A stretch of DNA of 64,000 nucleotides, from the NCBI GenBank assembly GCA_017413085.1, contig JAFPVC010000025.1:1-64000 (forward strand), in the 5' to 3' direction. Made by a program: the position numbers and the translations under genes. Positions 1 to 57,972 of the stretch are shown piece by piece. Source of the stretch: Prevotella sp. (lineage in GTDB: Bacteria; Bacteroidota; Bacteroidia; Bacteroidales; Bacteroidaceae). The stretch's first letter is position 1, and each line of letters starts with the position of its first letter. The notes beneath the pieces are model-generated. The model saw only the letters and a program-made list of their open reading frames with translations, was not told where the DNA came from and searched no databases.

Positions 1-93
1 CGGATTACACAGATTGCACGGATTACCATGCGGAAACTCTGTACTGCATAGAATAATTCGTAAAATTCGTTTAATTCGTAGTTAAAATAATAA
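1..93. repeat. modular inverted-repeat element, 9-mer class
   Basis: The left arm (1-25) is made of 9-mers of the form CGGATTACA/CAGATTGCA. The core starts TACCATGCGGA (25-35). The right arm (52-82) holds three copies of AATTCGT-type 9-mers that read CGAATT on the other strand. The left edge may run off the window. It is one of about a dozen such elements here and lies directly upstream of the lipoprotein gene. Confidence 0.6.
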
Positions 94-115
94 TAAAATA
101 ATTTGTAGTAGCACA

Positions 116-1699
116 ATGAAACAATTCAAGTTATATAGCGGCATGGCAGCAGTGTGTGCCATGCTCACGTTTGCCTCTTGCGGCAACGATATAGAACTGA
201 CCGAGGCACAGGCACCTGTCAAGGGTGAGTACAAAGTAACCATAACTGCCAGTCAGGAAGGCAGTGCCACACGTACTGCCGTTGACGGTACCAACGTGGT
301 GTGGCAGACAGGCGACGCCATCACCGTGTTCGACGGTGCTGGAGCAAACTGTCCGTTTGAACTTGCCAAGGGAGCAGGCACAACATTAGGTGAGTTCCAA
401 GGCACCATCACAGTTACCGAGCCTAAGAGTTACTGCGCAGTATATCCCGCTACGGCGAATGCAACAATCGACTCAGACTATGGCATCAGCGGACTTGTGC
501 TGCCTGTAGAACAGGTGGCCACACGAGACGGCTTCGACCCACAGGCAGCCATCATGACTGCACGCAATGACGATGCCGACAAGATCGTGAACGAGAATGA
601 AGACCTCAGCCTCGGTGCGTTCAAGCACGTCTGTGCCTTCGTCAAGGTTACAACTACAGAGGAGTATGACAGGATAACCTTCACCGCCAATGGTGGTGAT
701 AGCATCGCCGGAGGTTTCGATGCTCAGGTCGGTGCCGACGGTATTTCCAAGGCCATACCTACCTCTCCTTCATGTACGGTGAGCCTCGTTCCGCCAACTG
801 GCAGTACGAAGATAGCCGCCGGCACATACTTCATCGCCATCCTGCCAGGTATCCTTGAGGAAGGCTTCACCATGAGCTGCACCTCTATTGACAGTGATAA
901 CAAAGAGGTGACCACGATGGTACGCTCATACAGCGACAGAACCCAGGCCTTCTCTCGCCACAACGCAGTGAACATGGGAACTGTTGAAGAAGGCGTGACG
1001 GCAGTCACCTGGACACGTAACACACAGAAATACGTTGACCTCGGCCTAACCAGCGGCACGAAGTGGGCAACCTGCAATGTAGGCGCTTCAAGTCCTGAAG
1101 GCTATGGTGATTATTTTGCATGGGGTGAAACCACTCCAAAGGATAACTACAGTTGGGGAACCTACAAATGGTCTGAAGGTTCAGACAAAACTCTGACCAA
1201 ATACAATACAAACAGCGAAAGGGGTATTGTTGACGACAGAACCGTTCTTGAACTTTCAGATGATGCTGCTCACAGGAATTGGGGTGGTATCTGGCGCATG
1301 CCTACGCGTGATGAATTTGAGGAACTTAAAAATGAATGTTATTGGGAGTGGACGGATAACTACAACCACACTCATGTCAAGGGGTTCATAATCTATCAGG
1401 TTCGTTCTGGTGCTAATGGTGATAAAGGAAAAAAGAATACTCCAGACAATAATGTTACTCCATCTGTTCAGTACAACATTTTATCTGATAAGCATATATT
1501 CCTTCCTGCGGCAGGCTTCTACTCAGGTTCTTATTTGATAGGTGACGTATGTAACTATTGGGGTGCATCATTGGGCAGTCCAGATAATGCTGGATTGTCT
1601 CATTTTGCATATAATATGTATTTCAGCGGAAGGTATTATGATTGGCAGATTGCTGGCAATCGTACTCCTGGCGAGTCTGTACGTCCAGTTCTCAAATAA
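116..1699 (+). CDS. fimbrillin-like lipoprotein with C-terminal FISUMP domain
   Basis: The 527-residue product is probably a surface lipoprotein. A signal peptide ends in a lipobox (FASC, Cys about residue 22). The N-terminal half has the beta-rich character of Bacteroidales fimbrillin/Mfa-like proteins (for example the VVWQTGDAITVFDG stretch). From about residue 305 the sequence follows the FISUMP (Fibrobacter succinogenes major paralogous) pattern: YVDLGLTSGTKWATCNVGA, YFAWGET, WRMPTRDEFEEL, FLPAAGFY and a terminal VRPVLK. This fold resembles formylglycine-generating enzymes and C-type lectins and usually serves in binding, not catalysis. No partner gene is adjacent. The ligand cannot be read from the sequence. 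The ATG is well supported by the signal peptide. Confidence 0.85.
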   Translation: MKQFKLYSGMAAVCAMLTFASCGNDIELTEAQAPVKGEYKVTITASQEGSATRTAVDGTNVVWQTGDAITVFDGAGANCPFELAKGAGTTLGEFQGTITVTEPKSYCAVYPATANATIDSDYGISGLVLPVEQVATRDGFDPQAAIMTARNDDADKIVNENEDLSLGAFKHVCAFVKVTTTEEYDRITFTANGGDSIAGGFDAQVGADGISKAIPTSPSCTVSLVPPTGSTKIAAGTYFIAILPGILEEGFTMSCTSIDSDNKEVTTMVRSYSDRTQAFSRHNAVNMGTVEEGVTAVTWTRNTQKYVDLGLTSGTKWATCNVGASSPEGYGDYFAWGETTPKDNYSWGTYKWSEGSDKTLTKYNTNSERGIVDDRTVLELSDDAAHRNWGGIWRMPTRDEFEELKNECYWEWTDNYNHTHVKGFIIYQVRSGANGDKGKKNTPDNNVTPSVQYNILSDKHIFLPAAGFYSGSYLIGDVCNYWGASLGSPDNAGLSHFAYNMYFSGRYYDWQIAGNRTPGESVRPVLK

Positions 1700-1732
1700 A
1701 CCCATTGTTTCGCTCAAAGCTATAAAGAATTG

Positions 1733-1806
1733 AAATAATAAGTAATTGAAGGATTGAAAGATTGAAGTCGTCCATGCAGACAGGTTCTTCAACTTTTCAA
1801 TCCTTT
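1733..1806. repeat. modular inverted-repeat element, 8-mer class
   Basis: The left arm is 8-mers of ATTGAAGG/ATTGAAAG type, the core GTCCATGCAGACAGGT lies at about 1770-1785, and the right arm is the inverted 8-mers (TTTTCAAT, CCTTTAAT). The core is the exact reverse complement of the core of the element at 43708-43797. It follows the FISUMP lipoprotein and may act as its transcript end. The remaining 1807-2001 holds no gene; I see only A/T-rich sequence and a weak TAACTTTA box at 1942-1949. Confidence 0.75.
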
Positions 1807-2001
1807 AATTTTTCTATTGATACTATAAGTTTATATTTCCGCTGCCTCCATTCCACCGTGTCATGGTAGTCTAAATGTGAAATATCCATAAAACAAGCAA
1901 TAATTATGCCGAAAACACCCCCGTAATTGAAAACTTTTCACTAACTTTACAACCTGACAACAAATCTGAAAAGATATGCAAGACGTAAGTCGCCTTTGAT
2001 A

Positions 2002-5000
2002 ATGAGTATTATGAACCTAAAAGAATATATCAGCATCGTTAATCAGAAATATCACGCTGGCAATGCCACAGAGCACAGTTACAGAGGTGCTTTGGAGCAG
2101 TTGCTGCAAACGTTGTTGCCCAAACTGCAGATAGTAAACGAACCCAAGCGAGTGAAGTGCGGAGCGCCTGACTATATTGTCAGTCGTAAGGATGGTATGC
2201 CTGTGTTCTACATTGAGGCTAAGGATATAGGCGACAATGATCTTGACGGACGTAATCCTCATAGCCATAAGGAGCAGTTTACACGTTACAAGCAAGCACT
2301 AGACTATATTATTTTTACTGATTATCTGGACTTTCACCTATATGAGCATGGCGAGTTTGTGGATAGTGTGCGGATTGCTGAAGTGAAAGGTGACAAGATT
2401 GTTGCCATCAATGAGAATGAAGATAAGTTTCTGAATCTCATAGAGCATGTAGGCAATAATGCCATTCAACGCATAACATCGGCTTCTCGTCTTGCCAAGT
2501 TGATGGCAGGCAAAGCCCGACTGCTAAAAAACATCATTGAGCAGGCAGTAACTGACGACAGTAAGAGGATAACAGATAATGAGAATGCAATAGAGGAATT
2601 ATTCCATATACCTCAAGAGGAAGTATTCAAGACGGGACTAACAGAGCAGATGGAAACGTTTCGCAGACTGTTGCTTCACGATATTACTCCATCATCTTTT
2701 GCCGACATTTACGCTCAGACCATTGTGTATGGGCTGTTTGCTGCACGCCTTAACGACAAGACACCAGAGGATTTCTCACGGCAGGAAGCACTCAACCTGA
2801 TTCCAAAAACGAGTGAGTTTTTGCGTAATATGTTTCAACAGATAGCAGGTCTCGACCCCGACCCACGCATAGAATGGATTCTGGATGACCTCGTATTAGC
2901 CTTTGGCATCACCGATATGCAAAAGATTCTTGATGGCTATAACGAGGATACCAAGCGGCAAGACCCCATGATGCACTTCTATGAAGATTTTCTTGCTGCT
3001 TACGACTCATCGCTTCGCAAGGCTCGTGGAGTCTGGTACACACCACAGCCTGTGGTTAGTTTTATCGTGAGGGTCGTCGATGAGATACTGCAAAAAGAAT
3101 TCCATTTGCCTGAAGGACTGGCCGACTATAGCAAGGTACCTCACAGCGTTTCTGTTCCCCAGAGTTTTGACAAGCGAACTTCAGACGGCAAGAAGCACGT
3201 AACCAAAGATTTGTACCGCGTGCAGATATTAGATCCGGCAATGGGAACTGGCACTTTCCTTTCTGAAATCATACGTCAAGTGCGTCAGAAGTTTGAGGGC
3301 AACGATGGCATCTGGAATCAGTATGCCTCTACTTGCTTGTTGCCACGACTTTATGGTTTTGAGGTAATGATGGCACCTTACACCATTGCCCACATGAAAC
3401 TTTTTTTGCAACTGAAGGAAAATGGAGCGCTGACATCGAATGAGCCACCACACCTCAACCTATTGCTTACTAATTCGCTGGAAGAAGCAAATGACGATAC
3501 TGATTCGCTTTTCTCCTATTGGCTTAGTTTGGAATCAAAGAAGGCAAGTGTAATAAAGCGCGACTGCCCTGTAATGGTGATGATTGGTAATCCGCCATAT
3601 AGTGGAGAAAGCCAAAACAAAAGTGAATGGATTATGAAGCTCATGGAAAGCTATAAGAAGGAGCCAGGTGGCAAACTGCCACTCAATGAACGCAATCCAA
3701 AGTGGCTTAATGACGACTATGTGAAATTCATTCGCCTTGCTCAGGATTATATAGAGAAGAATGGCGAGGGCGTTATTGGATTTATCAATCCTCATGGCTA
3801 TCTCGATAATCCCACCTTCAGAGGTATGCGTTGGAATTTGTTGAAGACTTTCGACAAGATTTATACAATTGACCTCCACGGTAACAGCAAGAAGAAAGAA
3901 ACATGTCCTGATGGTAGCAAGGACGAGAATGTTTTTGATATTATGCAGGGCGTCAGCATCAACCTGTTTGTCAAGACTGGTAAGAAAGGAAAAGATGAAC
4001 TTGGAAAAGTGTACCATAAAGATTTATATGGACTGCGTCAGCAGAAATATGATTTCCTCGATGGGGCAACTTTAGGAAACGTTGGATATGAAGAAATGAA
4101 ACCTAAGGCTCCAATGTATTTCTTTGTTCCAAAGAATTTTGATTTACAGGAAGAATACGATAAAGGCTTCAAAGTTGATGAACTCTTTAATGTTAGTTCA
4201 GTATCTGTTGTTACAGCTAAAGATGCTATACTTGTTGACATGAATGAAAACAGTTTGTTTGCAAAGGTCAAACAGGAGTATGGCTCTGCAGATTCATCAC
4301 TTATAAAAAGATATAACTACAGACCGTTTGATGATAGGTTTGTGTATTATGACGTCCAAAAGATAGAACGTCCTCGTGAAACAACAATGCGGCAGATGAC
4401 GCATCAAAACGTAGCTTTGCTCACATGCAGGCAATTAGCTGGTAATGAGTGGAAGCATGTGTCTATAGCAGATGGCATAGTTGATGATTGCCGAGTTTCT
4501 TCAAAGACAAAGGAAAGAGGCTATGTTTTCCCTCTTTACATCTATAAGGAGAACATGGGCAAGGAAGAACGCATTGTCAACTTCAAAAAGGAATTGTATG
4601 ATAAGATTGCCAAGGGTTTGAACTATCTTCCTTGCTACGATGACAATGTGTTGGTTGACCCAACAAGTGAATATAACGGTGTACTCTATCCCCAAGTCCT
4701 CTTCGATTACATCTATGCAGTGTTGCATAGTCCAAGCTATCGCGAACGCTACAAGGAATTTCTGAAGATAGACTTCCCTCGCATACCTTATCCAACAGAC
4801 TGGGAGAAATTCCGTGATTTAGCGGAGCTGGGAGAAGAACTGCGACAACTGCATCTTATGGAAAACTTGCCCTCAAAGACTGGTGTCACCTTCCCTGTTG
4901 CTGGCTCGTTGCAAGTGGACTGCTACCGCTGGCAGGATAATCGCGTCTATATCAATGCAGAACAATACTTCGACGGTGTACCAGAATCAGCCTGGCAGTT

Positions 5001-5166
5001 CTACATTGGCGGCTACCAGCCTGCTCAGAAATGGCTCAAAGACCGCAAAGGCATGACTCTGAGTTTTGAGGACGTGAAGCATTACGGCCACATCATATAT
5101 GTGCTCCAGCAGACAGAACACCTGATGCAGGAAATTGACGATATAAGAAAGTCAGAGGGTAGTTGA
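2002..5166 (+). CDS. single-chain restriction-modification enzyme (type IIG / ISP-like, no helicase)
   Basis: About 1054 residues combining nuclease, methyltransferase and target recognition. Near residues 55-75 a PD-(D/E)xK nuclease pattern is visible (APDYIV ... YIEAKD). The N6-adenine methylase motif I, DPAMGTGTF, is near residue 410 and the catalytic motif IV NPPY near residue 530. The C-terminus (YIGGYQPAQKWLKDRKG, then SFEDVKHYGHII) matches the recognition-domain end of type ISP enzymes such as LlaGI. No helicase motifs lie between nuclease and methylase, and the length is well short of true ISP enzymes, so an Eco57I/type IIG arrangement is more likely. The TTG at 1996 is in frame, but ATG 2002 or 2011 is preferred. 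The gene appears intact. It heads a stretch of defence-like genes and relics. Confidence 0.88.
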   Translation: MSIMNLKEYISIVNQKYHAGNATEHSYRGALEQLLQTLLPKLQIVNEPKRVKCGAPDYIVSRKDGMPVFYIEAKDIGDNDLDGRNPHSHKEQFTRYKQALDYIIFTDYLDFHLYEHGEFVDSVRIAEVKGDKIVAINENEDKFLNLIEHVGNNAIQRITSASRLAKLMAGKARLLKNIIEQAVTDDSKRITDNENAIEELFHIPQEEVFKTGLTEQMETFRRLLLHDITPSSFADIYAQTIVYGLFAARLNDKTPEDFSRQEALNLIPKTSEFLRNMFQQIAGLDPDPRIEWILDDLVLAFGITDMQKILDGYNEDTKRQDPMMHFYEDFLAAYDSSLRKARGVWYTPQPVVSFIVRVVDEILQKEFHLPEGLADYSKVPHSVSVPQSFDKRTSDGKKHVTKDLYRVQILDPAMGTGTFLSEIIRQVRQKFEGNDGIWNQYASTCLLPRLYGFEVMMAPYTIAHMKLFLQLKENGALTSNEPPHLNLLLTNSLEEANDDTDSLFSYWLSLESKKASVIKRDCPVMVMIGNPPYSGESQNKSEWIMKLMESYKKEPGGKLPLNERNPKWLNDDYVKFIRLAQDYIEKNGEGVIGFINPHGYLDNPTFRGMRWNLLKTFDKIYTIDLHGNSKKKETCPDGSKDENVFDIMQGVSINLFVKTGKKGKDELGKVYHKDLYGLRQQKYDFLDGATLGNVGYEEMKPKAPMYFFVPKNFDLQEEYDKGFKVDELFNVSSVSVVTAKDAILVDMNENSLFAKVKQEYGSADSSLIKRYNYRPFDDRFVYYDVQKIERPRETTMRQMTHQNVALLTCRQLAGNEWKHVSIADGIVDDCRVSSKTKERGYVFPLYIYKENMGKEERIVNFKKELYDKIAKGLNYLPCYDDNVLVDPTSEYNGVLYPQVLFDYIYAVLHSPSYRERYKEFLKIDFPRIPYPTDWEKFRDLAELGEELRQLHLMENLPSKTGVTFPVAGSLQVDCYRWQDNRVYINAEQYFDGVPESAWQFYIGGYQPAQKWLKDRKGMTLSFEDVKHYGHIIYVLQQTEHLMQEIDDIRKSEGS

Positions 5167-26853: not shown

Positions 26854-27445
26854 ACGTTTGGTTTGTTAGTAAAGAATGTTAGTTAATTATTAATAATGAT
26901 ATAGTCTTTTATGACTGTTCAGGTGATTGAAATATATTTGAAATATATTGTTTTTAATGATAGTTAAATAGAATTAATCTAATTGTTTGCAAAGTTAGAT
27001 TATTTTTTTTATTTATCACGCAGTTTTGTGTTTCGTTTCATTGCGTTTTTGTGTCAACTTTGTATTTTAGTCGCATTTCCTTGCGATAAAAGTCAGCAAA
27101 GTCAATTTTGGTTTCATATACGCCGAAATTTCGATGTTTTGATATATTGTTGTAATACAGCAATATACACAACGAAAGGAAGGGGGTGCCATTCTCTTTT
27201 GTTGTAATTAGGGCTTGATTAGGATGTAATTAGGGCCTGATTACACTGTAATCGGGTGCTGATTATGATGTAAAAGTGGCCTTTTAGCATTGTAATCGCA
27301 TATAAGATTACAAAATTCGACAGGAAAATTGAACTGCAAAACGCTGAATGATGCCCAGATTAACACTTGTTAACCTCTATTTTGAGGGAAAAATGCGTGC
27401 GTCATTTGTTCACATATTTTTCCTTGTGTGATGGTATAAAACTGC
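26854..27445. other. long intergenic region upstream of susC
   Basis: I see no gene here. A minus-strand -7 element TAACTTTG at 26990-26997 could start the susC transcript, giving a leader of about 130 nt, but no good -33 TTTG is at the expected distance. The region also holds the 22-bp array (27203-27299) and, at 27377-27390, CTCTATTTTGAG, which recurs at 60081-60092. Confidence 0.6.
27203..27299. repeat. array of 22-bp units, locus A
   Basis: Four complete imperfect units start at exactly 22-bp spacing (27203, 27225, 27247, 27269) and a partial fifth starts at 27291. The form is TGTAATTAGGGCCTGATTACAC. Where one unit meets the next, ATTACA/TGTAAT form a short inverted repeat. The same unit occurs at 44302 and 59911. 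Confidence 0.85.
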
Positions 27446-30796: not shown

Positions 30797-30836
30797 TTAA
30801 TGCACAATGCACAATGCATAATGCATTATGAATTTT
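30797..30836. repeat. 7-mer repeat, partial element
   Basis: Heptamers AATGCAC, AATGCAC, AATGCAT and AATGCAT are followed by a short inverted end (TATGAATT). No CATGCGG core is present. It lies between the two membrane-subunit genes. Confidence 0.65.
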
Positions 30837-32190: not shown

Positions 32191-32910
32191 ATGATTCATC
32201 TAAAAGACATCAACAAGACCTATCAGGGTGCACAGCCGCTGCATGTGCTGAAGGGCATCTCGCTCGACATCGAGCAGGGAGAGTTCGTCAGCATCATGGG
32301 TGCGTCGGGTTCGGGAAAGTCAACACTGCTGAACATACTCGGCATACTCGACAACTACGACTCCGGCACATACGAACTGGCGGGAGTGCCCATCTGGAAT
32401 CTTTCGGAACGCCGCGCGGCAGAGTATCGCAACAAGTTGATAGGCTTCATATTCCAGTCGTTCAACCTTATCTCGTTCAAGACAGCAGTGGAAAACGTTG
32501 AGTTGCCATTGTTCTATCAGGGTGTGTCGAGAAGAAAACGCCACCAGATGGCATTGGAGTATCTTGACCGACTGGGCCTGAAGGACTGGGCAGAGCATTA
32601 TCCCAACGAAATGTCGGGCGGACAGAAGCAGCGCGTGGCAATAGCCCGTGCACTTATCACCCGTCCGCAGATAATACTTGCCGACGAGCCAACGGGCGCA
32701 CTCGACTCCAAGACATCCGTGGAGGTGATGCAGCTGCTCAAGCAACTGAACCAGGACGAGGGCATGACCATCGTGGTGGTGACACACGAGAGCGGCGTGG
32801 CCAACGAGACAAACAAGATAGTACACATCAAGGACGGCATCATAGGGAAGATAGAGGAGAACTTCGATCACAACTCAAGTCCGTTCGGCATCAACGGTAT
32901 GATGAAGTAA
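32191..32910 (+). CDS. LolD/MacB-type ABC ATPase
   Basis: 239 residues. Walker A is GASGSGKST near residue 42, the signature is MSGGQKQR, and Walker B is IILADEPTGALD with the MacB-family ALDSKTS continuation. It powers the two FtsX-like permeases that follow. The ATG at 32191 is preferred because the upstream in-frame TTG (32164) lies inside the promoter. Confidence 0.92.
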   Translation: MIHLKDINKTYQGAQPLHVLKGISLDIEQGEFVSIMGASGSGKSTLLNILGILDNYDSGTYELAGVPIWNLSERRAAEYRNKLIGFIFQSFNLISFKTAVENVELPLFYQGVSRRKRHQMALEYLDRLGLKDWAEHYPNEMSGGQKQRVAIARALITRPQIILADEPTGALDSKTSVEVMQLLKQLNQDEGMTIVVVTHESGVANETNKIVHIKDGIIGKIEENFDHNSSPFGINGMMK

Positions 32911-33026
32911 TGCACAATTCACAATGCATAATTCACAATTCATAATGCATAATTGGCTACCGCGTGAGAATATGTACTCCGCATGGTAATTATGCATTGT
33001 GCATTGAAAAAGCATTGTGAATTGAA
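32908..33026. repeat. modular inverted-repeat element, 7-mer class
   Basis: The left arm is heptamers TGCACAAT, TCACAAT, GCATAAT and so on. The core, read on the minus strand, is TACCATGCGGAGTACATA...TAGCCA (about 32950-32985). The right arm is inverted heptamers ATTATGC, ATTGTGC and ATTGTGA. It lies between the ATPase and the first permease. Confidence 0.85.
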
Positions 33027-34295: not shown

Positions 34296-34348
34296 TTTAA
34301 TGCACAATGCATAATGCATAATGCACAATTGGTTGTCGCATGTTAATG
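34296..34348. repeat. modular repeat element, 7-mer class, half-copy
   Basis: Heptamers AATGCAC, AATGCAT, AATGCAT and AATGCAC run into a partial core which on the minus strand reads TTAACATGCGACAACCA. The right arm is absent. Confidence 0.7.
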
Positions 34349-34361
34349 AACTGAAAAGGAA

Positions 34362-35615
34362 ATGAGAATAGATATAGATACATACAGGGAAATACTTGAT
34401 ACGCTGACACGCAACAAGTCGCGGTCGTTCCTCACTGGTTTCGGTGTGTTCTGGGGCGTCTTCATGCTCGTGGTGCTCATCGGAGGCGGTCAGGGGCTGA
34501 AGGAGTTGCTCGAGAAGAACTTCGAGGGCTTTGCGCAGAACACCGTCTTTATATGGGGGCAGCAGACGTCGAAGGCTTACAAGGGATTCCGCAAGGGACG
34601 CTGGTGGAGCATGGACTACAGGGACATCAACCGCCTGCACCAGCGTGTGCCGGAGCTTGACGTGGTGGCACCGGTGCTGTTCTCTTCATGGAATTCAAAT
34701 CCGACAGCCTATTACGGCGATCAGAAGACAACGCCGCGAGTGCAGGGCACGTCGCCAGACTATGCCAAGGTGGTGGCTCCCAAACTCTACTACGGCCGCT
34801 ACATCAACGACATGGACATAAATGAGTGCCGCAAGGTGTGTGTCATCGGCAAGAAGATATACAAGGAACTATTTAAGGAAGGTGGCGACCCGTGTGGCAA
34901 GAGCATACGCATAGACTCCACATACTATGAGGTGATAGGCGTGGACTACGCTTCCACGGAGATGAACATCAACGGACGTGCCGAGGAAAAGGTGACGTTG
35001 CCGTTGACGCTGATGCAGCAGACTTATAACCGCGGCAACCAGGTTGACATGCTGGTGGCAACAGGCAGGAGTGGGGTGGTGATGTCAACACTCACAGACC
35101 GCATCCGTGAGGCTGTGACTATGGCACACTATGTTGATCCCACCGATGAGCTGGGTGCTACGGTGTTCAATACCGAGGTGCTGTTCCAGATGCTTGACAA
35201 CCTTTTCAAGGGAGTGAACTTCCTTATCTGGCTGGTAGGATTGGGAACGCTGCTTGCTGGCAGCATCGGTGTGTCGAACATCATGATGGTAACAGTGCGC
35301 GAGCGTACCACGGAGATAGGCATACGCCGTGCCATCGGTGCCACGCCGAGGATGATACTCTCACAGATTATATCTGAGAGCATAGTGCTGACGCTTGTGG
35401 CGGGAATGAGCGGCATACTGTTCGGAGTATTGATACTGCAGATGCTCGAACTGGGCAACACCGAGGACGGCATTGTGAACGCCCACTTCCAGATTGGCTT
35501 CTGGACAGCTATCTTCTCCGCCCTTGTGGTTTCCGCAATGGGTATGCTGGCGGGCCTTGCCCCTGCGGCAAGAGCCATGAGCATCAAACCTATTGATGCA
35601 ATGAGAGACGAGTAA
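34362..35615 (+). CDS. MacB-like ABC permease 2
   Basis: 417 residues with the same layout as permease 1: N-terminal TM, periplasmic domain, three C-terminal TMs with GSIGVSNIMMVTVRERTTE, and the end LAPAARAMSIKPIDAMR. It is a paralog of the preceding gene, giving a heterodimeric permease with the shared ATPase. The adaptor gene follows after 22 bp. Confidence 0.92.
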   Translation: MRIDIDTYREILDTLTRNKSRSFLTGFGVFWGVFMLVVLIGGGQGLKELLEKNFEGFAQNTVFIWGQQTSKAYKGFRKGRWWSMDYRDINRLHQRVPELDVVAPVLFSSWNSNPTAYYGDQKTTPRVQGTSPDYAKVVAPKLYYGRYINDMDINECRKVCVIGKKIYKELFKEGGDPCGKSIRIDSTYYEVIGVDYASTEMNINGRAEEKVTLPLTLMQQTYNRGNQVDMLVATGRSGVVMSTLTDRIREAVTMAHYVDPTDELGATVFNTEVLFQMLDNLFKGVNFLIWLVGLGTLLAGSIGVSNIMMVTVRERTTEIGIRRAIGATPRMILSQIISESIVLTLVAGMSGILFGVLILQMLELGNTEDGIVNAHFQIGFWTAIFSALVVSAMGMLAGLAPAARAMSIKPIDAMRDE

Positions 35616-36750: not shown

Positions 36751-36763
36751 AAGGGTGGAGACT

Positions 36764-38235
36764 ATGAGTAGCATTGTTAATAAGGTTAAAGTGAAAGGTT
36801 GGGTGATAGGCATATCATTCTTTCCCCTGTTTACCCTCACCCCTTCTTCCCTGAGTGCGCAGCGCACGTGGACCCTGCGCGACTGCTGCGAGTATGCCGT
36901 GGAGCACAACGTGGGCATCAAGCAGCAGCAGAACCAGTGCCGCCAGCAGGAGATACAGCTCAACACAGCCAAGAACTCGCGCCTGCCTGACGTGAGCGGC
37001 GGCATCAGCCAGAACTTCTCTTTCGGCCGCGGTCTTACTGCCAACAATACATACAGCAACACCAATACGTCGTCCACATCGTTCCAGGTGGGTGCCAGCG
37101 TACCAGTGTTCACTGGCTTTCAGATATCCAACCAGATAAAACTGAACCAGCTGAACCTTGAGGCTGCCACTGCCGACCTTGAGAAGGCGAAGAACGACGT
37201 GCGCATGCAGGTGGCGCAGGCATATATACAGATTCTCTACGACATGGAGATTGCCGCCGTGGCACGCCGCCAGATAGCGATAGACTCCATGCAGGTGGTG
37301 CGTCTTGAGGCTTTCGTTGACAACGGCAAGGCCTCCGGGGCAGAACTGTCACAGCAGAAATCCTCACTCGCCAACAGTCGCCTCACTGCCACGCAGGCCG
37401 ACAACAACACCCGCCTGGCAGTGCTCTCCCTGACGCAACTGCTCGAACTGCCCACGCCTGACGGATTCCAGATTAATGCGCAAAACATTCAGGCTAATGC
37501 ACAATGCACAATGCACAAAGTTCAATGCATAATGCACAAGGCACAATGCACAATTACCATGCGGACTCACTTTCGTGCGACAGCCAATTATACATTGTGC
37601 ATCGTGAATTGTGCATTGATAAGGCATTGCCACTCCCTGACCAGATCTATGCTGAGGCTCTCGGCATCAAGCCGGAGATTGTCTCTCAGCAGCTGCGCCT
37701 GAAGGGTACGGAATACAGCATCAAGATTGCCCGTGCGGGATATTACCCCACGATATCCGCCAACGGTGGACTGAACACAAACTACTACACCACCTCTGGC
37801 TTCAATTCTGACGGCTTCGGCACACAGCTGAAGAACAACTTCTCACAGTATGTAGGCCTGAGTCTGAACGTGCCTATCTTCAACCATTTCCAGACGCGCA
37901 ACAACATTCGCAACGCCAAGATAGAGCAGGAGACCCAGCAACTGCAACTGGAGAACACGAAGAAGACTCTCTACAAGGAAATACAGCAGGTATATTACAA
38001 TGCCCTGAACGCCCAGGCCAAGGAGCGTTCTTCCTATGAGGCAGTGAAGAGTTCGGAGGATGCTTTCCGCCTGATGCAGGCGAAGTATGAGAACGGCAAA
38101 GCCTCCATCACGGAGTTCAACGAGTCGAAGAACAACTACATGAAGGCGGAGTCAGACCTCGTTCAGGCACGTTATGAAACCATCTACCAGCGTGCGCTGA
38201 TAGATTTCTACCGCGGTAAGGAACTCGATTTTTAA
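36764..38235 (+). pseudogene. TolC-family outer-membrane channel, interrupted by a repeat element
   Basis: The first frame runs from ATG 36764 with a signal peptide and the first TolC repeat (CEYAVEHNVGIKQQQNQ ... LTQLLELPTPDGFQI). The second repeat (PDQIYAEALGIKPEI ... YENGKASITEFNESKNN) continues in a different frame to 38235. Between them, about 37474-37627 is a 7-mer inverted-repeat element. Removing it would join the halves at the usual variable linker. The first frame reads on to 37702 and ends in unrelated sequence; the second could start at ATG 37504 inside the repeat. As drawn, no full-length TolC is made, so the efflux system may be inactive or borrow another TolC. Confidence 0.8.
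37474..37627. repeat. modular inverted-repeat element, 7-mer class, inside tolC
   Basis: The left arm is about eleven heptamers of AATGCAC type. The core TACCATGCGGACTCACTTTC starts near 37555 and ends CGACAGCCA. The right arm is inverted heptamers (ATTATAC, ATTGTGC, ATCGTGA, ATTGTGC). It is the largest left arm in the window. Confidence 0.85.
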
Positions 38236-42190: not shown

Positions 42191-43708
42191 ATGGATACAT
42201 TCATGTTCTTAGGCTTTGGCATAGATGCCTGGATAACCATTATTACGGTGCTGGGCATGTTTACGACTTTGCTGTTCACCAAGTTGCGCACCGACTTGGT
42301 ATTCCTTGGTTCCATTGGCATTCTGTGTGTTACTGGTGTGCTTGATGCCAAGGAGGCCTATTCAGGTTTCAGCAGCACGTCCGTGGTAGTCATCGGTGTA
42401 TTGTTTGTGGTTGTCGCAGGCTTGATGTACACGGGCGTGTTGCAATGGATTGTGAAGAACCTGCTCGGCACGCCCAGCTCGTATTCTCGGGCTGTCACAC
42501 GCCTTATGCTGCCTGTTGCCGTGCTCAGTTCTTTCCTCAGCAACACCACCGTTGTGGCACTGTTCGTGAATATCGTCAAGATGTGGGCGAAGAAACTCAA
42601 CGTCTCACCGTCAAAACTGCTCATCCCATTGAGTTATGCTTCAGGTATGGGTGGCGTCTGCACCCTTATCGGCACGCCGCCGAATATGATTATCAGTGGA
42701 CTGTATGCCGACAAGACTGGTGAGACGATGAATATTCTTACCACGACCATCCCCGGTTTGTTCTGTCTTGCCGTGGGTGTGCTGTCTGTCATCGCCATGC
42801 GCCGTCTGCTGCCCGACCGCAAGGCACCGGAGAATGATTCAGAGGAGACGACGGACTATACCGTGGAACTTATTGTTCCGTCGACCCATAAATTTATTGC
42901 CAAGACGATTGGCAAGGCCGGCATGTTCGATGTAGAGGGCTGCCGCTTGCTAAAATGGCGGCATTTCGACGATGCTCCCGTACCAGTCAGCGAGAACGAA
43001 TATCTGATGGGTGGTGACCATTTGGTCTATGCAGGAAAGCCCAAGGCCGTTTTGGAACTTGCCAAGAAACATGGGCTTATTATTGGTGACGAGGTTATCA
43101 ATGTAGGACGCGGTACTCTCATTTCATCGCTTATCATGCTTGCTATGGTGGTAGCATCGGCTGTCGGTGTTATGCCGTTGCTGCAGTGCGCATTGATTGC
43201 TGCCGCCGCTATGCTCGTGTTCCGCTGCTGCACCCCTGATCAGGCTATGAAGTCTATCAACTGGGACATTCTCATTGTCTTTGCGGCCAGCGTGGTTCTT
43301 GGTCTTGCTATTCAGAAGACAGGCATTGCCGAACGGCTTGCCTTGGGCATCCTTGATGTATGTGGTTCAAATCCGCTTGTGGTTATGACTGCCATCTGTT
43401 TCGTAGGCACCTTTATCACAGAGTTCATCTCAAACACTGCGGCAGGAGCCATGTTCTTCCCTATCATGTATGAGGCAGCCGAGAAATTGGGCTATGAGCC
43501 TTATCCCTTCCTCGTTGCCCTGATGATAAGTGTCAGCAGCAGTTTTGCTACGCCTATTGGTTCGCCCACTCACATGCTGGTGTATGGACCAGGTGGCTAC
43601 CGTTTCAGCGACTTTATGCGCATTGGCCTGTTGATGAACATCATCATCCTTGCGGCCAATATCTTCATCGTGAATATTATCTATCCGTTAACTCCGTTGC
43701 AGTTTTAA
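42191..43708 (+). CDS. SLC13/DASS-family transporter with RCK_C domain
   Basis: 505 residues with about twelve hydrophobic segments. The family signatures are FLSNTTVVALFV and PLSYASGMGGVCTLIGTPPNMI in the first half and FVGTFITEFISNTAAGAMFFP and ATPIGSPTHMLVYGPGGY in the second, the two-fold repeat of anion/sodium symporters. A soluble TrkA-C/RCK_C domain (about 220-295) sits between the halves. The substrate is likely a dicarboxylate, citrate or sulfate. It is the last gene of the binding protein-sensor-STAS series. Confidence 0.9.
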   Translation: MDTFMFLGFGIDAWITIITVLGMFTTLLFTKLRTDLVFLGSIGILCVTGVLDAKEAYSGFSSTSVVVIGVLFVVVAGLMYTGVLQWIVKNLLGTPSSYSRAVTRLMLPVAVLSSFLSNTTVVALFVNIVKMWAKKLNVSPSKLLIPLSYASGMGGVCTLIGTPPNMIISGLYADKTGETMNILTTTIPGLFCLAVGVLSVIAMRRLLPDRKAPENDSEETTDYTVELIVPSTHKFIAKTIGKAGMFDVEGCRLLKWRHFDDAPVPVSENEYLMGGDHLVYAGKPKAVLELAKKHGLIIGDEVINVGRGTLISSLIMLAMVVASAVGVMPLLQCALIAAAAMLVFRCCTPDQAMKSINWDILIVFAASVVLGLAIQKTGIAERLALGILDVCGSNPLVVMTAICFVGTFITEFISNTAAGAMFFPIMYEAAEKLGYEPYPFLVALMISVSSSFATPIGSPTHMLVYGPGGYRFSDFMRIGLLMNIIILAANIFIVNIIYPLTPLQF

Positions 43709-43797
43709 GGATTGAAAAATTGAAGGATTGAAAAGTTGAAGTACCTGTCTGCATGGACAACTTCAATTTTTCAATCCTTCAACTCTTCAATTCTTCT
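43708..43797. repeat. modular inverted-repeat element, 8-mer class
   Basis: The left arm is 8-mers of GATTGAAA/ATTGAAGG type. The core TACCTGTCTGCATGGAC (43741-43757) is the reverse complement of the 1770 core. The right arm is inverted 8-mers. It follows the SLC13 gene and could act as a transcript end. Confidence 0.8.
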
Positions 43798-43888: not shown

Positions 43889-43917
43889 TAATGCACAATT
43901 CATAATTGGCTGCGCAT
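43889..43917. repeat. modular repeat element, 7-mer class, half-copy
   Basis: AATGCACAATTCATAATTGGCTGCGCATGACTA: two heptamers run into a core which reads TAGTCATGCGCAGCCA on the minus strand. Confidence 0.65.
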
Positions 43918-44206
43918 GACTATTTGAACACAAAGGTTAGCTCTACGAAGTCAATGTCTTCACTTGCCTGAGGTGATTAAGAAAATGTAATCTTCTTACC
44001 CTTTCCTACGGGGTTGCTCTCCCCCGCGAAACGGGGGAGTCAGAAGGGGGTGAAAAGACTATTGAGGGAAGGGTGGGGCTTTTTGTTCTATTTCTCCACT
44101 ATCAAGAAAACTCATTTTAAGGGGTGTTGGCAGGGGGTGGTGGACAGAGTGTCTACAACGGGGGTAAAATCGCGTAGAGGTACCTTGAAACGCTTTTTTA
44201 AAAAGT

Positions 44207-44312
44207 ACAATGCATAATGCATAATGCACAATTAAGTCATGCGGGGTGAAAAATGCGAAGTTTACGTAACAATTGTGCATTATTCATTATGAATTATGCC
44301 TTAATTAGGCCC
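44207..44312. repeat. modular inverted-repeat element, 7-mer class
   Basis: Left heptamers AATGCAT, AATGCAT and AATGCAC, core TAAGTCATGCGGGGTG (44233-44248), and inverted right arm AATTGTGCATTATTCATTATG. It runs into the 22-bp array at 44302. Confidence 0.8.
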
Positions 44313-44389
44313 AAATTACCGCATAGTCGGGCCTTGATTACCACCTAATCAGGTGCTAATTACACTGTAATCAGGGCCTAATTACAGCG
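44302..44389. repeat. array of 22-bp units, locus B
   Basis: Four units start at 44302, 44324, 44346 and 44368, exactly 22 bp apart, for example TAATCAGGGCCTAATTACAGCG. They match the units at 27203 and 59911. Confidence 0.85.
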
Positions 44390-44535
44390 CGTTAAGAAAA
44401 CTTTACATTTTTAACATTTACGCAAATGTCGTATTTGCGTCTTGCCGTGATGACGAAAAATTGGCTTGTTGCTTTGTTTTCTTATTGAGATAAGTTGCAA
44501 AATATAGGTGTTTTTGTAAAAGTGAAATCCTTTTT

Positions 44536-44573: not shown

Positions 44574-44625
44574 TTTTAGGATTGAAGGATTGAAAGATTG
44601 AAGAATTGAAGGATTGAATGAGAAG
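44574..44625. repeat. 8-mer repeat, left arm only
   Basis: Five or six tandem 8-mers of GATTGAAG/ATTGAAAG type without core or right arm, within the probable GH43 leader. Confidence 0.6.
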
Positions 44626-48695: not shown

Positions 48696-51188
48696 ATGAA
48701 GATGAAAACAACTACAAAGAGATTTTTGGTTCTATTTCTTGCCGTCATGGCGATGATGGTAAATGCTAATGCATGGAGCGTTCCTTATGCAACGCTTTCA
48801 GGTTCGACACTGACATTCCAGTATGGTGAATTGCCGACGGGACAAGATGTCTATAATATGTCTAATGAGAAGTTTTATGATAAATGGTCTTCAATCGTAA
48901 CATCAATTACGAAAATTACTATCGACCCGTCGTTTGCAGAGGTTCGGTTTAAAACTTGTGCAAAGTTGTTTTACGGGATGTCTAATCTTGAGTCGATAGA
49001 AGGACTGCAGTATTTAAATACTTCTGAGGTTACCAATATGTATGGTATGTTCGCAGGTTGTATAAGTCTTGCAACCCTAAACGTTAGCAGTTTCAATACC
49101 TCAAAAGTAACTGACATGAGTTTTATGTTCCAAAATTGTATAAAACTTACGGAACTTGATGTCAGTGGTTTCAATACATCCAACGTTACCAATATGAATG
49201 CTATGTTCTTGTCTTGTGGTGGACTTACGAACCTTGATGTGAGAAAATTTGATACATCAAATGTTACCAATATGTGTAATATGTTTTGTCTTTGTCAAGA
49301 GCTTACGGATCTTGATGTCAGAGGTTTCAATACCTACAAAGTAACTGATATGAGAAGTATGTTTTATGGTTGTCTTCGCTTGACTACAATATATTGTAAC
49401 GACAAATGGAGTTGTGGCAATTCGTCAGGTATGTTTTCATATTGTAAAAAATTAAAAGGGGCAATATCATATGATTCTTCAAAGGAAGATGCCACTTACG
49501 CCAACCCAGCGACAGGCTATTTCACAAGAAAGTCGTACAGCTATGAACTGTGGATTGCCGGTACGCAGGTGACGGACGATAACAAGGATAACATACCTGT
49601 CAGGGGCGGAACAGTAACGTATAACTCGGATGCTAATATGCTTAGTTTGAGTAGTGCTACAATTACTGCAACGGGAACTAATGGCTATTATAAAACAGCT
49701 GTATACAACGAAATGGAAGGCCTTCGCATAAGAGTGTATAACAACTGCAAGCTTACTTCGGATAATGACTGTGGAATAGTCAGCACTGGTTCTCTGATAA
49801 TAGAAGGTTGGCAGAATTCTACGCTCTCAATCACAGCTCCCACAGCTGTTGCTATGACTTCTGAGGAAGATAACACACTTTCCATACGCAATGGCATTAA
49901 GCTGACACTTGATGGTACCAGCTACTATGGCGTGACAAGTAGAAACTCCAATACAAAGATGGAAGTGATGGGCTCTGACACGGAGGTAAAGACCAGGGGC
50001 GTGAAGGAGTGTTATAGTCAACTGAAGGATATAAAACTCTACAATAAACTTGCTCTCACTGAGCCAGCAGGTGCCTACATCAGCGGTGGCAAGGTATATG
50101 CCTCTGACGCCAGCATTGTGAAGAACGAGTGGACTAAGATAGCACTTGATAATAGTACAACTGTAAGACGCATAGAAATCACAGACTATACATGGCCCAA
50201 GGACTTTGAACCTGCCGACTACGAGGTGACAAGTCCTACGAATGGTGTAAAGTCTGTAAGCGTGGATTACTACTTTGGTAGCAGGATTATTGATAATTAC
50301 GAGGCAAGTGCCGGTGACCATTATGCCATTGTCTTCACGGTGGAACTTGAGGACGGCTATGAGTTCCCGGCTGATAACGACTACTCTGCCTTCATAGAGC
50401 GTGATGGCGAGACGGTGTATCAAAACGAAAGGTTAAATGGACTAGCTAACAACCAGAAACGCTTTGCATGGAATTCATACTATGTGCCAACACCAGAGGG
50501 CGGCACATACATGCGCACTGCAAAGGATACCATCACTGCACCGGTAATCGGTGCTGAACCAGTGTGGGAGATTGCGGCGGCAGCAGGGGCTAAGGCAGCA
50601 GGTGCATTGCCAGAGGCAAATCCCAAGGAGCAGTTCCAAAGGGACTTCTACTGTCCGGTTGATGACATACTGTGGTTTGAGAAAGTGCCTTATGACGTTG
50701 ATGATCTTGGTAGGAAGCTCATGTCACGTGGTGATAAATTCCAGCCAGGCAAGACGTATGGCGTGATAATGAAGGTGTCACCAGTCAGTGGACAGCAGTT
50801 CCATAATAATACGCAGTTTAGTGTGAATGGGGAGACTGCTCGGTATTGGGATCAACTTTTCTATTACGTAGAATCTGCGGGTGCTTATTATCGGTTACAT
50901 AACAGTACAGAAGCAAGATTATGCTATGTGTTCCCCGAATTGCCGTGCTATCTTGGCGACGTGAACAAGGATGGCGCAGTCACCATGGCAGATGCCAATG
51001 CGGTGGTGAACTACTACCTTGCTACAGAGAAGCCTGAGGATTTCCCCCTTCACCTTGCCAACGTAAACAACGACTATGATGATGACGGCAAACCGGCAGT
51101 AACCATGGCCGATGCCAACCAGATTGTAAACTCATTCCTCAGCGGTGCAGAGCCACAGATGTATGCCCCCACATTTGATCACGAATAA
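48696..51188 (+). CDS. surface protein: BspA-like DUF285 repeats plus dockerin-like C-terminus
   Basis: 830 residues with a signal peptide (to about residue 26, VNANA). From about 108 to 237 there are five 26-residue repeats of the form NTSxVTxMxxMFxxCxxLTxLDVSxF, the DUF285/BspA-like surface repeat. A long beta-rich middle follows. Near 750-815 are two calcium-loop repeats, DVNKDGAVTMADANAVVNYYL and NVNND...AVTMADANQIVNSFL, as in type I dockerins. The stop TAA falls where a following in-frame FISUMP domain has its conserved Tyr (see 51189-51374). Adhesion or assembly on the cell surface is likely; a matching cohesin is not in the window. Confidence 0.85.
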   Translation: MKMKTTTKRFLVLFLAVMAMMVNANAWSVPYATLSGSTLTFQYGELPTGQDVYNMSNEKFYDKWSSIVTSITKITIDPSFAEVRFKTCAKLFYGMSNLESIEGLQYLNTSEVTNMYGMFAGCISLATLNVSSFNTSKVTDMSFMFQNCIKLTELDVSGFNTSNVTNMNAMFLSCGGLTNLDVRKFDTSNVTNMCNMFCLCQELTDLDVRGFNTYKVTDMRSMFYGCLRLTTIYCNDKWSCGNSSGMFSYCKKLKGAISYDSSKEDATYANPATGYFTRKSYSYELWIAGTQVTDDNKDNIPVRGGTVTYNSDANMLSLSSATITATGTNGYYKTAVYNEMEGLRIRVYNNCKLTSDNDCGIVSTGSLIIEGWQNSTLSITAPTAVAMTSEEDNTLSIRNGIKLTLDGTSYYGVTSRNSNTKMEVMGSDTEVKTRGVKECYSQLKDIKLYNKLALTEPAGAYISGGKVYASDASIVKNEWTKIALDNSTTVRRIEITDYTWPKDFEPADYEVTSPTNGVKSVSVDYYFGSRIIDNYEASAGDHYAIVFTVELEDGYEFPADNDYSAFIERDGETVYQNERLNGLANNQKRFAWNSYYVPTPEGGTYMRTAKDTITAPVIGAEPVWEIAAAAGAKAAGALPEANPKEQFQRDFYCPVDDILWFEKVPYDVDDLGRKLMSRGDKFQPGKTYGVIMKVSPVSGQQFHNNTQFSVNGETARYWDQLFYYVESAGAYYRLHNSTEARLCYVFPELPCYLGDVNKDGAVTMADANAVVNYYLATEKPEDFPLHLANVNNDYDDDGKPAVTMADANQIVNSFLSGAEPQMYAPTFDHE

Positions 51189-55955: not shown

Positions 55956-55972
55956 TATATCTATCCAATACG

Positions 55973-56004: not shown

Positions 56005-56040
56005 CAAATCACTCTTTTTTTTGTGAAAAACACGTAAAAG

Positions 56041-56072
56041 TTTGTTTGTTTTAATATTTTTTCTTAACTTTG
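56041..56072 (+). promoter_or_regulatory. promoter of the phosphohexomutase gene
   Basis: TTTG (56041-56044) and TAACTTTG (56065-56072) are 20 bp apart. It is divergent from the rlmH promoter. Confidence 0.75.
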
Positions 56073-56134
56073 TGGTCAAGTGTAAGAATAAATTAACAAT
56101 ATCAAATAACCAGTAAAACTAAGAAAAACAAACA

Positions 56135-57877
56135 ATGGAAAACAAGGAACAGTTGATTGCACAGTGTGAAGCCGTTGCCAAGCAGTGGCTTTCGCCGTCG
56201 TTTGATGAAGATACGCGCCGTGAGGTGCAGGCCATGCTTGATAACAGCGACAAGACAGCCTTGATAGATGCTTTCTATCAGTCGCTTGAGTTCGGCACTG
56301 GTGGCTTGCGCGGCATCATGGGTGCCGGAACAAACCGCATGAACAAGTATGTCGTAGGCATGGCTACTCAGGGTTTTGCCAACTATATCCTCAAGGCATT
56401 CCCCGGCAAGCAGTGCTCAGTTGTCGTTGGCCATGACTGCCGCAACAACGGACGAATGTTTGCTGAAACCGTTGCCGACATTTTCTCAGCCAACGGCATC
56501 AAGGCTTATCTTTTTGAGAGCCTCCGTCCGACACCAGAGATTTCATTCGCCATCCGCCAGCTTGGCGCACAGGCAGGCGTGAACGTCACCGCATCCCACA
56601 ACCCGAAGGAATACAACGGCTACAAGGCTTACTGGGAAGATGGTGCACAGGTGCTTGCTCCACATGACACCGGCATCATCGAAGAGGTGAACAAGGTCAA
56701 GATTGAGGATGTGAAGTTCAACGGTAATCCTGACCTCATCAAGATAATCGGTGGTGAGATGGACTATGACTACATGGTGGCTGTTAAGGAGAGCATGGTT
56801 GACCAGGACGTTATCCTGCGTCAGAAAGACCTCAACATCGTTTATTCAGCAATGCACGGCACTGGCCGCCACATCGTGCCTATGTGCCTGCGCTCATGGG
56901 GATTCCAGAATATCAACGTGGTGCCTGAGCAGATGGTCGTCGATGGCAACTTCCCAACTGTCGTTTCGCCGAACCCGGAGAATGCAGAGGCTATGACGCT
57001 CGGCATGAAACTGGGTACGAAACTCAATGCCGACCTTGTGGTGGCTACCGACCCTGATGCCGACCGCCTCGCCATCGTCTGCCGCAACGACAAGGGTGAA
57101 TGGCAGATTCTCAACGGCAACCAGACCGCCTGCATGTTCTACTGGTACACCATCAAGAACAAGAAGGCTCTTGGTCAGCTTCAGCCAACAGACTTTATGG
57201 TTAAGACCATCGTGACTTCTGAACTCATTGCCAAGATTGCACGTGCCAACGGCGTGGAGTGCTTCGACGAGTATACAGGCTTCAAGTGGATTGCCTACCG
57301 CATACGCGAGAATGAAGGCAAGCGCAAGTATATCGGCGGCGGTGAGGAGTCATTCGGCTACCTGCCTTACGACAAGGTGCGCGACAAGGATGCTCCGGCC
57401 TCTATCTGCCTTATCTGCGAGATTGCCGCATGGGCAAAAGACCAGGGCAAGACACTCTATGACCTGCTGCTTGATATATATAAGGAGTATGGATTCCAGA
57501 AGGAAGCGGCTGTCAGCGTTACCAAGCCGGGCAAGAGCGGTGCCGACGAGATAAAGAAGATGATGGAAGACTTCCGTGCCACACCGCCTACGGAGATTGC
57601 CGGTTCAAAGGTTGTGACAGTGAAGGACTACAAGACTCTGAAGCAGACCACAGCCAACGGCACAGTGACAGACCTCAACATGCCAACCACGAGCAACGTA
57701 CTGCAGTGGTTCACAGAGGATGGCATGAAGATTTCCGTTCGCCCGTCAGGCACAGAGCCAAAGATTAAGTTCTACTGCGAGGTACCTGTTGCAGGCCAGT
57801 TTGACGGCGACTACAATGCCTTCACAGCCAAGGCCGATGCCCGCATTGAGGAGATAAAGAAGAGCCTCGGACTGTAA
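56135..57877 (+). CDS. phosphoglucomutase/phosphomannomutase
   Basis: 580 residues. The alpha-D-phosphohexomutase motifs appear in order: TASHNPKEYNGYK with the phosphoserine, DPDADRLAI for metal binding, GGGEESFGY for sugar binding, and RPSGTEPKIKFY for phosphate binding. The length and the N-terminal GTGGLRGIMGAGTNRMN place it in the PGM2-like group. It interconverts hexose 1- and 6-phosphates in the cytoplasm. Confidence 0.95.
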   Translation: MENKEQLIAQCEAVAKQWLSPSFDEDTRREVQAMLDNSDKTALIDAFYQSLEFGTGGLRGIMGAGTNRMNKYVVGMATQGFANYILKAFPGKQCSVVVGHDCRNNGRMFAETVADIFSANGIKAYLFESLRPTPEISFAIRQLGAQAGVNVTASHNPKEYNGYKAYWEDGAQVLAPHDTGIIEEVNKVKIEDVKFNGNPDLIKIIGGEMDYDYMVAVKESMVDQDVILRQKDLNIVYSAMHGTGRHIVPMCLRSWGFQNINVVPEQMVVDGNFPTVVSPNPENAEAMTLGMKLGTKLNADLVVATDPDADRLAIVCRNDKGEWQILNGNQTACMFYWYTIKNKKALGQLQPTDFMVKTIVTSELIAKIARANGVECFDEYTGFKWIAYRIRENEGKRKYIGGGEESFGYLPYDKVRDKDAPASICLICEIAAWAKDQGKTLYDLLLDIYKEYGFQKEAAVSVTKPGKSGADEIKKMMEDFRATPPTEIAGSKVVTVKDYKTLKQTTANGTVTDLNMPTTSNVLQWFTEDGMKISVRPSGTEPKIKFYCEVPVAGQFDGDYNAFTAKADARIEEIKKSLGL

Positions 57878-57900
57878 ATACCTTATACGTGGAAATGATG

Positions 57901-57972
57901 TTCCCACAGATATCACAGATTCACACTGGTTATATTATAATCCTGTGTGACTCGTGAAATCTGTGGGGATTT
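57901..57972. repeat. modular inverted-repeat element, 9-mer class
   Basis: Left 9-mers CACAGATAT and CACAGATTC, a core without CATGCGG (about 57927-57942), and a right arm that reads CACAGATTT, CACGAGTCA, CACAGG on the minus strand. CCCACAGAT/ATCTGTGGG closes the outer stem. Its units match those at 1-25. It may end the mutase transcript. Confidence 0.65.

Follow-up and report, generated by a model that had tools for sequence, protein, structure and literature searches.

A single core family, TACCATGCGG and its variants, is combined with tandem arms of 7-, 8- and 9-bp units in dispersed elements of a Prevotella sp. genome. The elements are described here from a stretch of 64,000 nucleotides (bases 1-64000 of contig 14, hereafter 'the window'), and the repeat system to which they belong is real, active and widespread in the genus. 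We interpret them as a modular, intergenic form of heptamer-type tandem repeat in a Prevotella lineage, resembling short tandemly repeated repetitive (STRR) sequences and long simple sequence repeats (SSRs); such arrays would lengthen through slippage and disperse among gaps that tolerate them. We put the probability of this reading at roughly 0.6.

The window's genome (G000; G and L numbers label genomes and the genome stretches compared, respectively) measures 2.83 Mb in 62 contigs and is 79% complete. Our own-genome sample comprises the window and 34 further stretches, 721 kb in total. Loci from relatives come from a search with one window protein, which has 583 relatives, and represent the best 80; they are recorded as Prevotella, Prevotellaceae, Bacteroidales or Xylanibacter, and many are ruminant-derived. 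Arms beside cores were judged by eye, except where a strict array script is named, and many counts depend on a simple purpose-made caller of open reading frames (ORFs).

A core shared by arms of different unit length

The original prediction had described twelve elements of the window as inverted tandem arms, of constant unit length within an element, around cores that mostly contain CATGCGG or a close variant. Short tandem units are present at all 12 sites. Arms flank both sides in eight of them (1-93, 1733, 30797, which has no core, 32908, 37474, 43708, 44207 and 57901), but the other four carry a single arm (29889, with a different 7-mer on its other side, 34296, 43889 and 44574). CATGCGG occurs in five, namely the four that contain an exact TACCATGCGGA (1-93, 29889, 32908 and 37474) and 44207. 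A CATGC-type or half core is found in four (1733 and 43708, both with CCATGCAGACAGG; 34296 and 43889, with one half, ..CGCATG), and three have neither (30797, 44574 and 57901). Five of the window's 11 CATGCGG sites fall within elements.

Over the whole genome, TACCATGCGGA is matched 14 times, versus once for its reversed control, with tandem units beside each match. Exact TACCATGCGG 10-mers occur at 16 sites of the 721-kb sample (15 when a pair of identical contig ends is counted once), and all 16 adjoin 7-, 8- or 9-mer arms. AATKCAY 7-mers stand on both sides at five sites and 9-mers on both sides at six; one site has 7-mers on the left and 8-mers on the right, three combine an AAAAGTG arm with something else on the right, and one has a left arm alone. 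As originally proposed, the same core is thus found next to arms that are unrelated in sequence and differ in unit length. The strict script places an array within 25 bp of 10 of the 16 sites, compared with 10.7% of non-coding background positions (1498/13999); the six sites that it missed have degenerate units (9-mers in five cases, 7-mers in one).

One-mismatch relatives of TACCATGCGG lie between 8-mer arms at L153:9199, L153:11428 and L159:281. A constant unit length within each element is refuted by three chimeric elements, with 7-mers on one side and 8-mers on the other (L135:12470, L147:16441 and L159:19417), the last two of which have one-mismatch cores. Most of the remaining one-mismatch matches appear to be coding. 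A third core type, core II, belongs to a composite repeat roughly 310 bp long. At L153:49 and L156:19911, the same sequence at two contig ends, an element made of AAAAGTG units and the core has on its right side a run of the 6-mer TTTTCG, a rare period below 7.

Among 299 genomes drawn from the genus, 150 have at least one match to TACCATGCGGA, usually one to three; the highest counts are 21 in G049, 14 in G000, 8 in G087, 6 in G050, 5 in G109, and 4 each in G075 and G159. All 10 exact 10-mers in a 114.5-kb sample of G049 come after 9-mer arms, with an insert of about 30 bp between the two in two cases. In G050, G109 and G075, which together have 15 sites, 7 were read and none of these 7 has arms beside TACCATGCGG; the reading leaves out G087 (8 sites) and G159 (4). 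Since all 16 own-genome sites and all 10 sites in G049 stand with arms, the pairing of a single core with several unit lengths is upheld. Cores outside the window do occur together with tandem arms, the point on which the original prediction had staked itself.

Unit families, abundance and turnover

Intergenic arrays of period 2-6 number three in the own-genome sample, where periods 7, 8 and 9 count 30, 38 and 6 arrays. The 80 relatives' loci hold none of period 2-6, then 58, 33, 21, 7, 3 and 2 arrays of periods 7 to 12, and none of period 13. The G049 sample has no array of period 7, two of period 8 and 13 of period 9. First-order shuffles of 81 loci yield 0.8-1.0 arrays per period for periods 7-9, and in these loci the density of arrays in coding sequence is 19- to 26-fold below that of intergenic sequence. 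No arrays at any period from 2 to 25 were detected in 19,771 intergenic bp of E. coli K-12. Period 22 forms a separate class, with 25 arrays in the own-genome sample and 30 in relatives.

The 92 own-sample arrays fall into 21 unit families, six of which comprise 75 arrays. When unit sharing is defined by at most one mismatch, 657 array pairs have a common unit, whereas random units matched in base composition give 47-67; among the relatives' 175 arrays the figures are 737 pairs versus 102-135. Unit AATKCAY was surveyed in 40 genomes. Within the genus it is matched 227 times in G000, 113 in G003, 54 in G015, 41 in G021, 33 in G013, 26 in G007 and 14 in G017; two genomes from other families of the order have 49 and 18 matches, and 26 of the 40 genomes have none. 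Reversed controls gave zero matches in 39 genomes and one in the remaining genome. Exact consensus is observed for 106 of 145 interior units of AATKCAY arrays, and many of the others are related AAYTCTT units in register. A plasmid search returned six records with weak array matches only.

Empty and occupied gaps, whose comparison between strains the original prediction had recommended, were compared across relatives. A clear example lies in an ATP-binding cassette (ABC) transporter operon of conserved gene order. Between its ATPase gene and its MacB/FtsX-type permease gene, the window has a gap of 128 bp that holds the full element at 32908-33005; this gap measures 2-6 bp in many relatives and is filled elsewhere by unrelated units, for example CTAGnnnnA 9-mers or heptamers. 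Among 552 flank-matched pairs, we found 16 sites of clean presence or absence, ten of which are tandem units of 7 to 10 bp by eye and six are not; the ten stem from two gene junctions in different lineages. Global alignments of some locus pairs were partly misaligned through rearrangement, and clear cases alone were retained. Classical miniature inverted-repeat transposable elements have fixed terminal inverted repeats and duplicate their target site. Of the Prevotella elements, a subset has inverted arms; no target duplication is obvious by eye at the 16 empty/occupied pairs, whose flanks, however, diverge by 3-14%.

Orthologous arrays differ by whole units: 7 bp between L079 and L100, 9 bp between L048 and L049, and 27 bp, or three 9-bp units, between L097 and L101. 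Furthermore, one unit family is replaced by another at the same site in L079 versus L080 and in L112 versus L115, and L084 and L088 differ by a core-like insert of 30 bp within an ATTAAAC array. The genomes of L086 and L087 have 0 and 14 AATKCAY matches, respectively, despite 93.3% identity at the locus.

Growth, spread and possible function

In our preferred reading, a unit of 7, 8 or 9 bp would be multiplied into a degenerate array. Array length changes by whole units, as the orthologous indels display; slippage as the cause of this growth, and the means of spread, are what we infer. Arrays would also reach new sites of the same genome, as suggested indirectly by the few dominant unit families and by abundances that differ between close species; they may do so by copying, possibly through template switching or conversion between arrays. 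They would then persist in tolerant gaps, presumably under selection, often just past a stop codon, where many are located. A subset takes the form of two inverted arms around a short core. In this species the TACCATGCGG family is combined with 7-, 8- and 9-mer arms, most simply via inter-element recombination or template switching, which would also account for the chimeric elements. Transcripts of two-armed elements would fold into hairpins, with a possible regulatory effect.

Several observations weigh against this reading. Slippage alone accounts neither for the near-absence of periods 2-6 nor for the genome-wide spread of one family. Within AATKCAY arrays, similarity between units depends only weakly on their distance (p = 0.007 for the Y state, 0.08 for the K state and 0.34 for the whole unit), and this test therefore does not argue strongly for sequential copying. 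Of the arrays, 27 of the 92 in our own sample and 59 of the 175 from relatives fall inside called ORFs with a length of 80 amino acids or more, some of them perhaps spurious; arrays are therefore not strictly intergenic. In the sister pair L062 and L067, the hairpin element at L062:6111-6254 and L067:336-479 is identical at 143 of 144 positions, compared with 311/330 and 538/600 in the neighboring coding sequence; this higher conservation points to a function or to recent transfer, and away from neutral turnover. Finally, AATKCAY clusters have a single polarity when two-armed. Their counts are 13 (+), 8 (-), 12 (+-) and 0 (-+) in our own sample and 18, 14, 4 and 0 in 100 other loci; the 16 +- cases, partly non-independent in that L062 and L067 are orthologous and some lie within the composite repeat, suggest that some elements were copied whole.

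The arms themselves seem to spread without a common core: a 30-base probe of the L062/L067 core finds one match per genome at up to three mismatches, and the arm family has 139 and 157 matches in those two genomes. A dedicated copying activity of the Bacteroidota may also be imagined, a polymerase or a nucleic-acid-guided complex with a floor of 7 nt in either case, which would write arbitrary arrays into gaps with a species-specific step of 7-9 nt and use CATGCGG-type cores as start or junction sites. We regard it as quite improbable.

The original prediction suggested a single process behind the elements, perhaps slippage or end-templated synthesis at a mobile hairpin. Slippage fits the whole-unit indels. 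Fold-back synthesis, in which one arm is copied off the other at a hairpin end, would agree with inverted arms of one polarity around cores, and 85 of 252 arrays do have an inverted partner within 110 bp, versus 28-37 in controls (direct partners: 59 versus 37-42). Nevertheless, inverted partners are confined to these 85, and 126 of the 252 stand alone, lacking both an inverted partner and another direct one. Opposing arms of AATKCAY elements agree in 39 of 80 states, no better than arms of different elements (52.8% expected when arms are shuffled among 16 elements). Arms of chimeric elements differ in family and period, and the probe of the L062/L067 core has a single match per genome. Opposing arms that disagree to this extent leave end-templated synthesis unsupported, and we regard it as disfavored and very improbable.

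A second alternative is a mobile hairpin resembling repetitive extragenic palindromes (REPs) or their paired form (REPINs), moved in trans by a Y1 transposase of the REP-associated tyrosine transposase (RAYT) type, with arms expanding secondarily. Two-armed elements fold strongly and have a single polarity, and some very similar 9-mer copies have common flanks. The 9-mer elements terminate in CTAC...GTAG, and the CTAC/GTAG tetranucleotide is used by REP/RAYT systems. Furthermore, G000 has two RAYT-like Y1 genes, one matching NCBIfam REP_Tyr_transpos at 34.8 bits (below the cut-off of 80). Some 160-260 bp upstream of one of the two (L164:1044-2024, minus strand), a degenerate hairpin of tandem units can be recognized by eye. 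The protein encoded at L164:1044-2024 (-) has 326 amino acids, a 27-bp tandem repeat downstream of its gene, and relatives in many genus genomes.

RAYT-like genes do not, however, follow array abundance: at E<=1e-15, five of the seven genus genomes in which AATKCAY is matched 10 times or more have such a gene, as do 8 of the 17 in which it is matched less often. G003, 99% complete and with 113 AATKCAY, has no RAYT-like match and one other Y1 gene, of 152 amino acids; array-rich G017 has no RAYT-like match either, and G007 (26 AATKCAY) has no PF01797 match yet matches the RAYT-like protein. Arrays of 7-9-mers lie within 300 bp of 4 of 23 distinct RAYT-like genes, compared with 61/324 and 158/788 ordinary ORFs (19-20%); AATKCAY pairs and CATGCGG are absent within this distance from all 23. 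Many arrays, moreover, are one-armed. We found no support for an association with RAYT, whose genes neither track array abundance nor have flanks richer in arrays than those of other genes, and consider a mobile hairpin unlikely as the origin of the elements.

Reverse transcriptase is not supported as a maker of the repeats: PF00078, present in G000, G015 and G039, was not found in array-rich G003, G007, G013, G017, G021 and G033, of which G013 and G021 are incomplete (65% and 81%). Activity in the past, or that of other reverse-transcriptase families, is conceivable. Among RAYT-like and PF00078 candidates, no machinery for the arrays was identified.

We may also hypothesize that the elements are selected RNA or DNA hairpins involved in mRNA 3'-end protection, attenuation or operon tuning, tandem units being a mode of stem building as in the P6b stem of the Nostoc trnL intron. 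RNA folding beats shuffles for 11 of 12 hand-chosen stretches (z from -2.1 to -9.1), the exception being the one-armed 34296 stretch. By automatic ORF calls, 23 of the 79 gaps that measure 60 bp or more have their first array starting no further than 5 bp past the preceding stop codon, against a uniform expectation of 6.8. The conservation of the L062/L067 element beyond its flanking genes also speaks for selection. On the other hand, terminator-like sites between 29 and 45 kb, a region that covers 9 of the 12 elements, number 15 versus 13.1 in shuffles, and none of the 15, from a scan for loops of 3-8 bases only, falls on an element. Arms do not preserve complementary states, half of the arrays (the 126 above) are unpartnered, and the element is missing from the corresponding junction in sister species. 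We see a small chance that selected hairpins explain the system. Arrays alter operon spacing and may alter transcripts; an efflux gene even contains one of them.

Assembly artefacts in metagenome bins could be invoked given the fragmented, incomplete window genome and the several contigs that end in or beside elements. AATKCAY arrays are present, however, in G015, a single contig that is 99% complete, and other arrays in L079 and L080, recorded as Xylanibacter ruminicola strains; the chance of an artefact is practically negligible. Slippage growth with spread between permissive gaps remains our preferred reading.

Window elements and known repeat systems

Coordinates of the window elements are collected in the table below. 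Close look-alikes of the first 9-mer element are found at L157, L159, L160 and L135. The two inverted 8-mer elements (1744-1805 and 43708-43797) have at least 13 bp of core in common. The efflux gene (36755-38232), in an ABC/HlyD operon, is split by its element into halves in different frames, which match homologue residues 33-240 and 240-456, although an assembly indel could account for the frame change. The composite repeat consists of a conserved CGCGTAGAGG... head, the 7-mer hairpin with core II, a 22-bp array and a conserved GCGTTAAGAAAACTT tail; the 721-kb sample has four copies, one truncated by a stretch end (window 44111-44419, L135:12755, L148:50(-) and L153:10170(-)).

Tandem-unit elements of the window; z scores compare RNA folding with shuffles (stretch folded in parentheses where it differs)
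Position	Strand	Feature	RNA fold z
1-80	+	9-mer element; left arm truncated by contig start, core TACCATGCGGAAACTCTGTACTGCATAG, right arm of ATTCGTnnA units	-3.1 (1-93)
1744-1805	+	8-mer element; inverted ATTGAARG arms, core holds CCATGCAGACAGG	-5.8 (1736-1815)
29897-29982	+	Left arm of AAAAGTG 7-mers; core TACCATGCGGA at 29930-29940; another 7-mer, AATTATC, to the right	
30799-30836	+	AATKCAY 7-mers directly meeting inverted units; coreless	
32908-33005	+	Complete AATKCAY element; core I on minus strand	-4.5
34299-34341	+	AATKCAY left arm and half core (TTGTCGCATG), without right arm	+0.5, no better than shuffles (34296-34365)
37496-37617	+	Complete AATKCAY element with core I, inside outer-membrane efflux gene	-2.4
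43708-43797	-	8-mer inverted element; core of 1744-1805 in opposite orientation	-9.1
43890-43918	+	Two AATKCAY units and half core (TGGCTGCGCATG)	
44111-44419	+	Composite dispersed repeat of about 310 bp; 7-mer hairpin 44207-44300, core II (TCATGCGGGGT...ATGCGA), 22-bp repeats	
44578-44622	+	8-mer array in one orientation; coreless	
57901-57972	+	Inverted hairpin whose arms each hold about 2.5 CACAGATnn 9-mers; CATGCGG absent from core	-7.1

Tandem arrays of 22 bp, reminiscent of BrickBuilt, are located at 27203-27273, 44329-44385 and 59946-60019. A 78-bp tandem repeat of about 3.7 copies lies within a long ORF at 49090-49374, and a protein resembling Type ISP restriction-modification enzymes (Pfam Type_ISP_C, N6_Mtase) is encoded at 1996-5166, downstream of two elements.

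The original prediction knew of no described family with this design. This stands in part: heptamer arrays are known from Xanthomonas, Beggiatoaceae, cyanobacteria and a number of Bacteroidetes (PMC4679880, PMC4692102), and stems of heptamer units from P6b; no description of a core common to 7-, 8- and 9-mer arms was recognized among the open-literature matches listed. In P6b of the Nostoc trnL (tRNA-Leu UAA) intron, according to the cited passages, degenerate 7-nt units of Class I (TDNGATT) or Class II (NNTGAGT) stand inverted on either side of a stem-loop, length changes in steps of 7 nt, and one unit class has repeatedly given way to another at a given site (PMC4476775). The Prevotella elements work like the P6b stem yet are not members of its kind, as there is no group I intron: Rfam at gathering threshold gave only four tRNAs in the window. 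Furthermore, P6b is a single site in a group I intron, whereas the Prevotella elements are dispersed, with 7-, 8- and 9-bp units and a core common to unit classes.

TAACTGA heptamers of Beggiatoaceae, Cyanobacteria and Bacteroidetes likewise form intergenic direct arrays, which are missing in relatives with the same gene neighbors and differ between close genomes mostly by 7-nt indels; as portrayed there, they consist of one fixed heptamer, mostly direct and near start codons in the main species (PMC4679880). The Prevotella elements, in contrast, belong to many families, with degenerate letters in their units, and include inverted arms and cores. We group the arms with heptamer-type long SSRs and STRRs such as Xanthomonas GGGAATC and Nostoc GGGGAYT. 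Heptanucleotides are the commonest of these in most genomes (Mrazek et al. 2007, as cited in PMC4692102 and PMC4679880), arrays are degenerate, an inverted pair is shown, and slippage related to the polymerase footprint is proposed (PMC4692102, PMC4679880). A cause of the bacterial heptamer excess had been proposed and was unsettled in 2007 (as cited in the same two papers). A 2025 survey finds some 6-9-bp repeats enriched in prokaryotic phyla and a high repeat density in Bacteroidota (PMC12699852). Neither a common core nor mixing of 7-, 8- and 9-bp units is reported in the cited parts of these sources (PMC4692102, PMC4679880, PMC12699852).

STRRs are defined by units of about 5-11 nt, led by heptamers and in intergenic excess, and by whole-unit length changes between close genomes. 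The Prevotella arrays show both, the changes being of 7, 9 and 27 bp, yet period 8 slightly exceeds 7 in our own sample and 9 dominates in G049. STRRs are, moreover, simple arrays without a conserved non-repeat part; this describes one-armed arrays but not the core-bearing subset, which we therefore treat as a variant rather than as plain STRRs.

BrickBuilt, a miniature inverted-repeat transposable element of Porphyromonas gingivalis, is an intergenic composite whose body consists of tandem 23-nt units; our composite at 44111-44419 is similar, and inverted arms of 7-9-mers are not named for BrickBuilt in the part cited (PMC4596501). REPs and REPINs are short dispersed intergenic palindromes (PMC3116915). 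The Prevotella elements are likewise short, dispersed, intergenic and palindromic, but no association with RAYT was found for them. We know of no REP or REPIN elements with tandem-unit arms.

No account of an equally sharp period floor with species-specific preference was found among the open-literature matches listed. Prevotella offers a dense natural experiment, in which related species have nothing at a given junction or fill it with 7-, 8- or 9-mers unrelated to one another, with a sharp floor at 7; the question of step size is therefore testable in cultivable strains.

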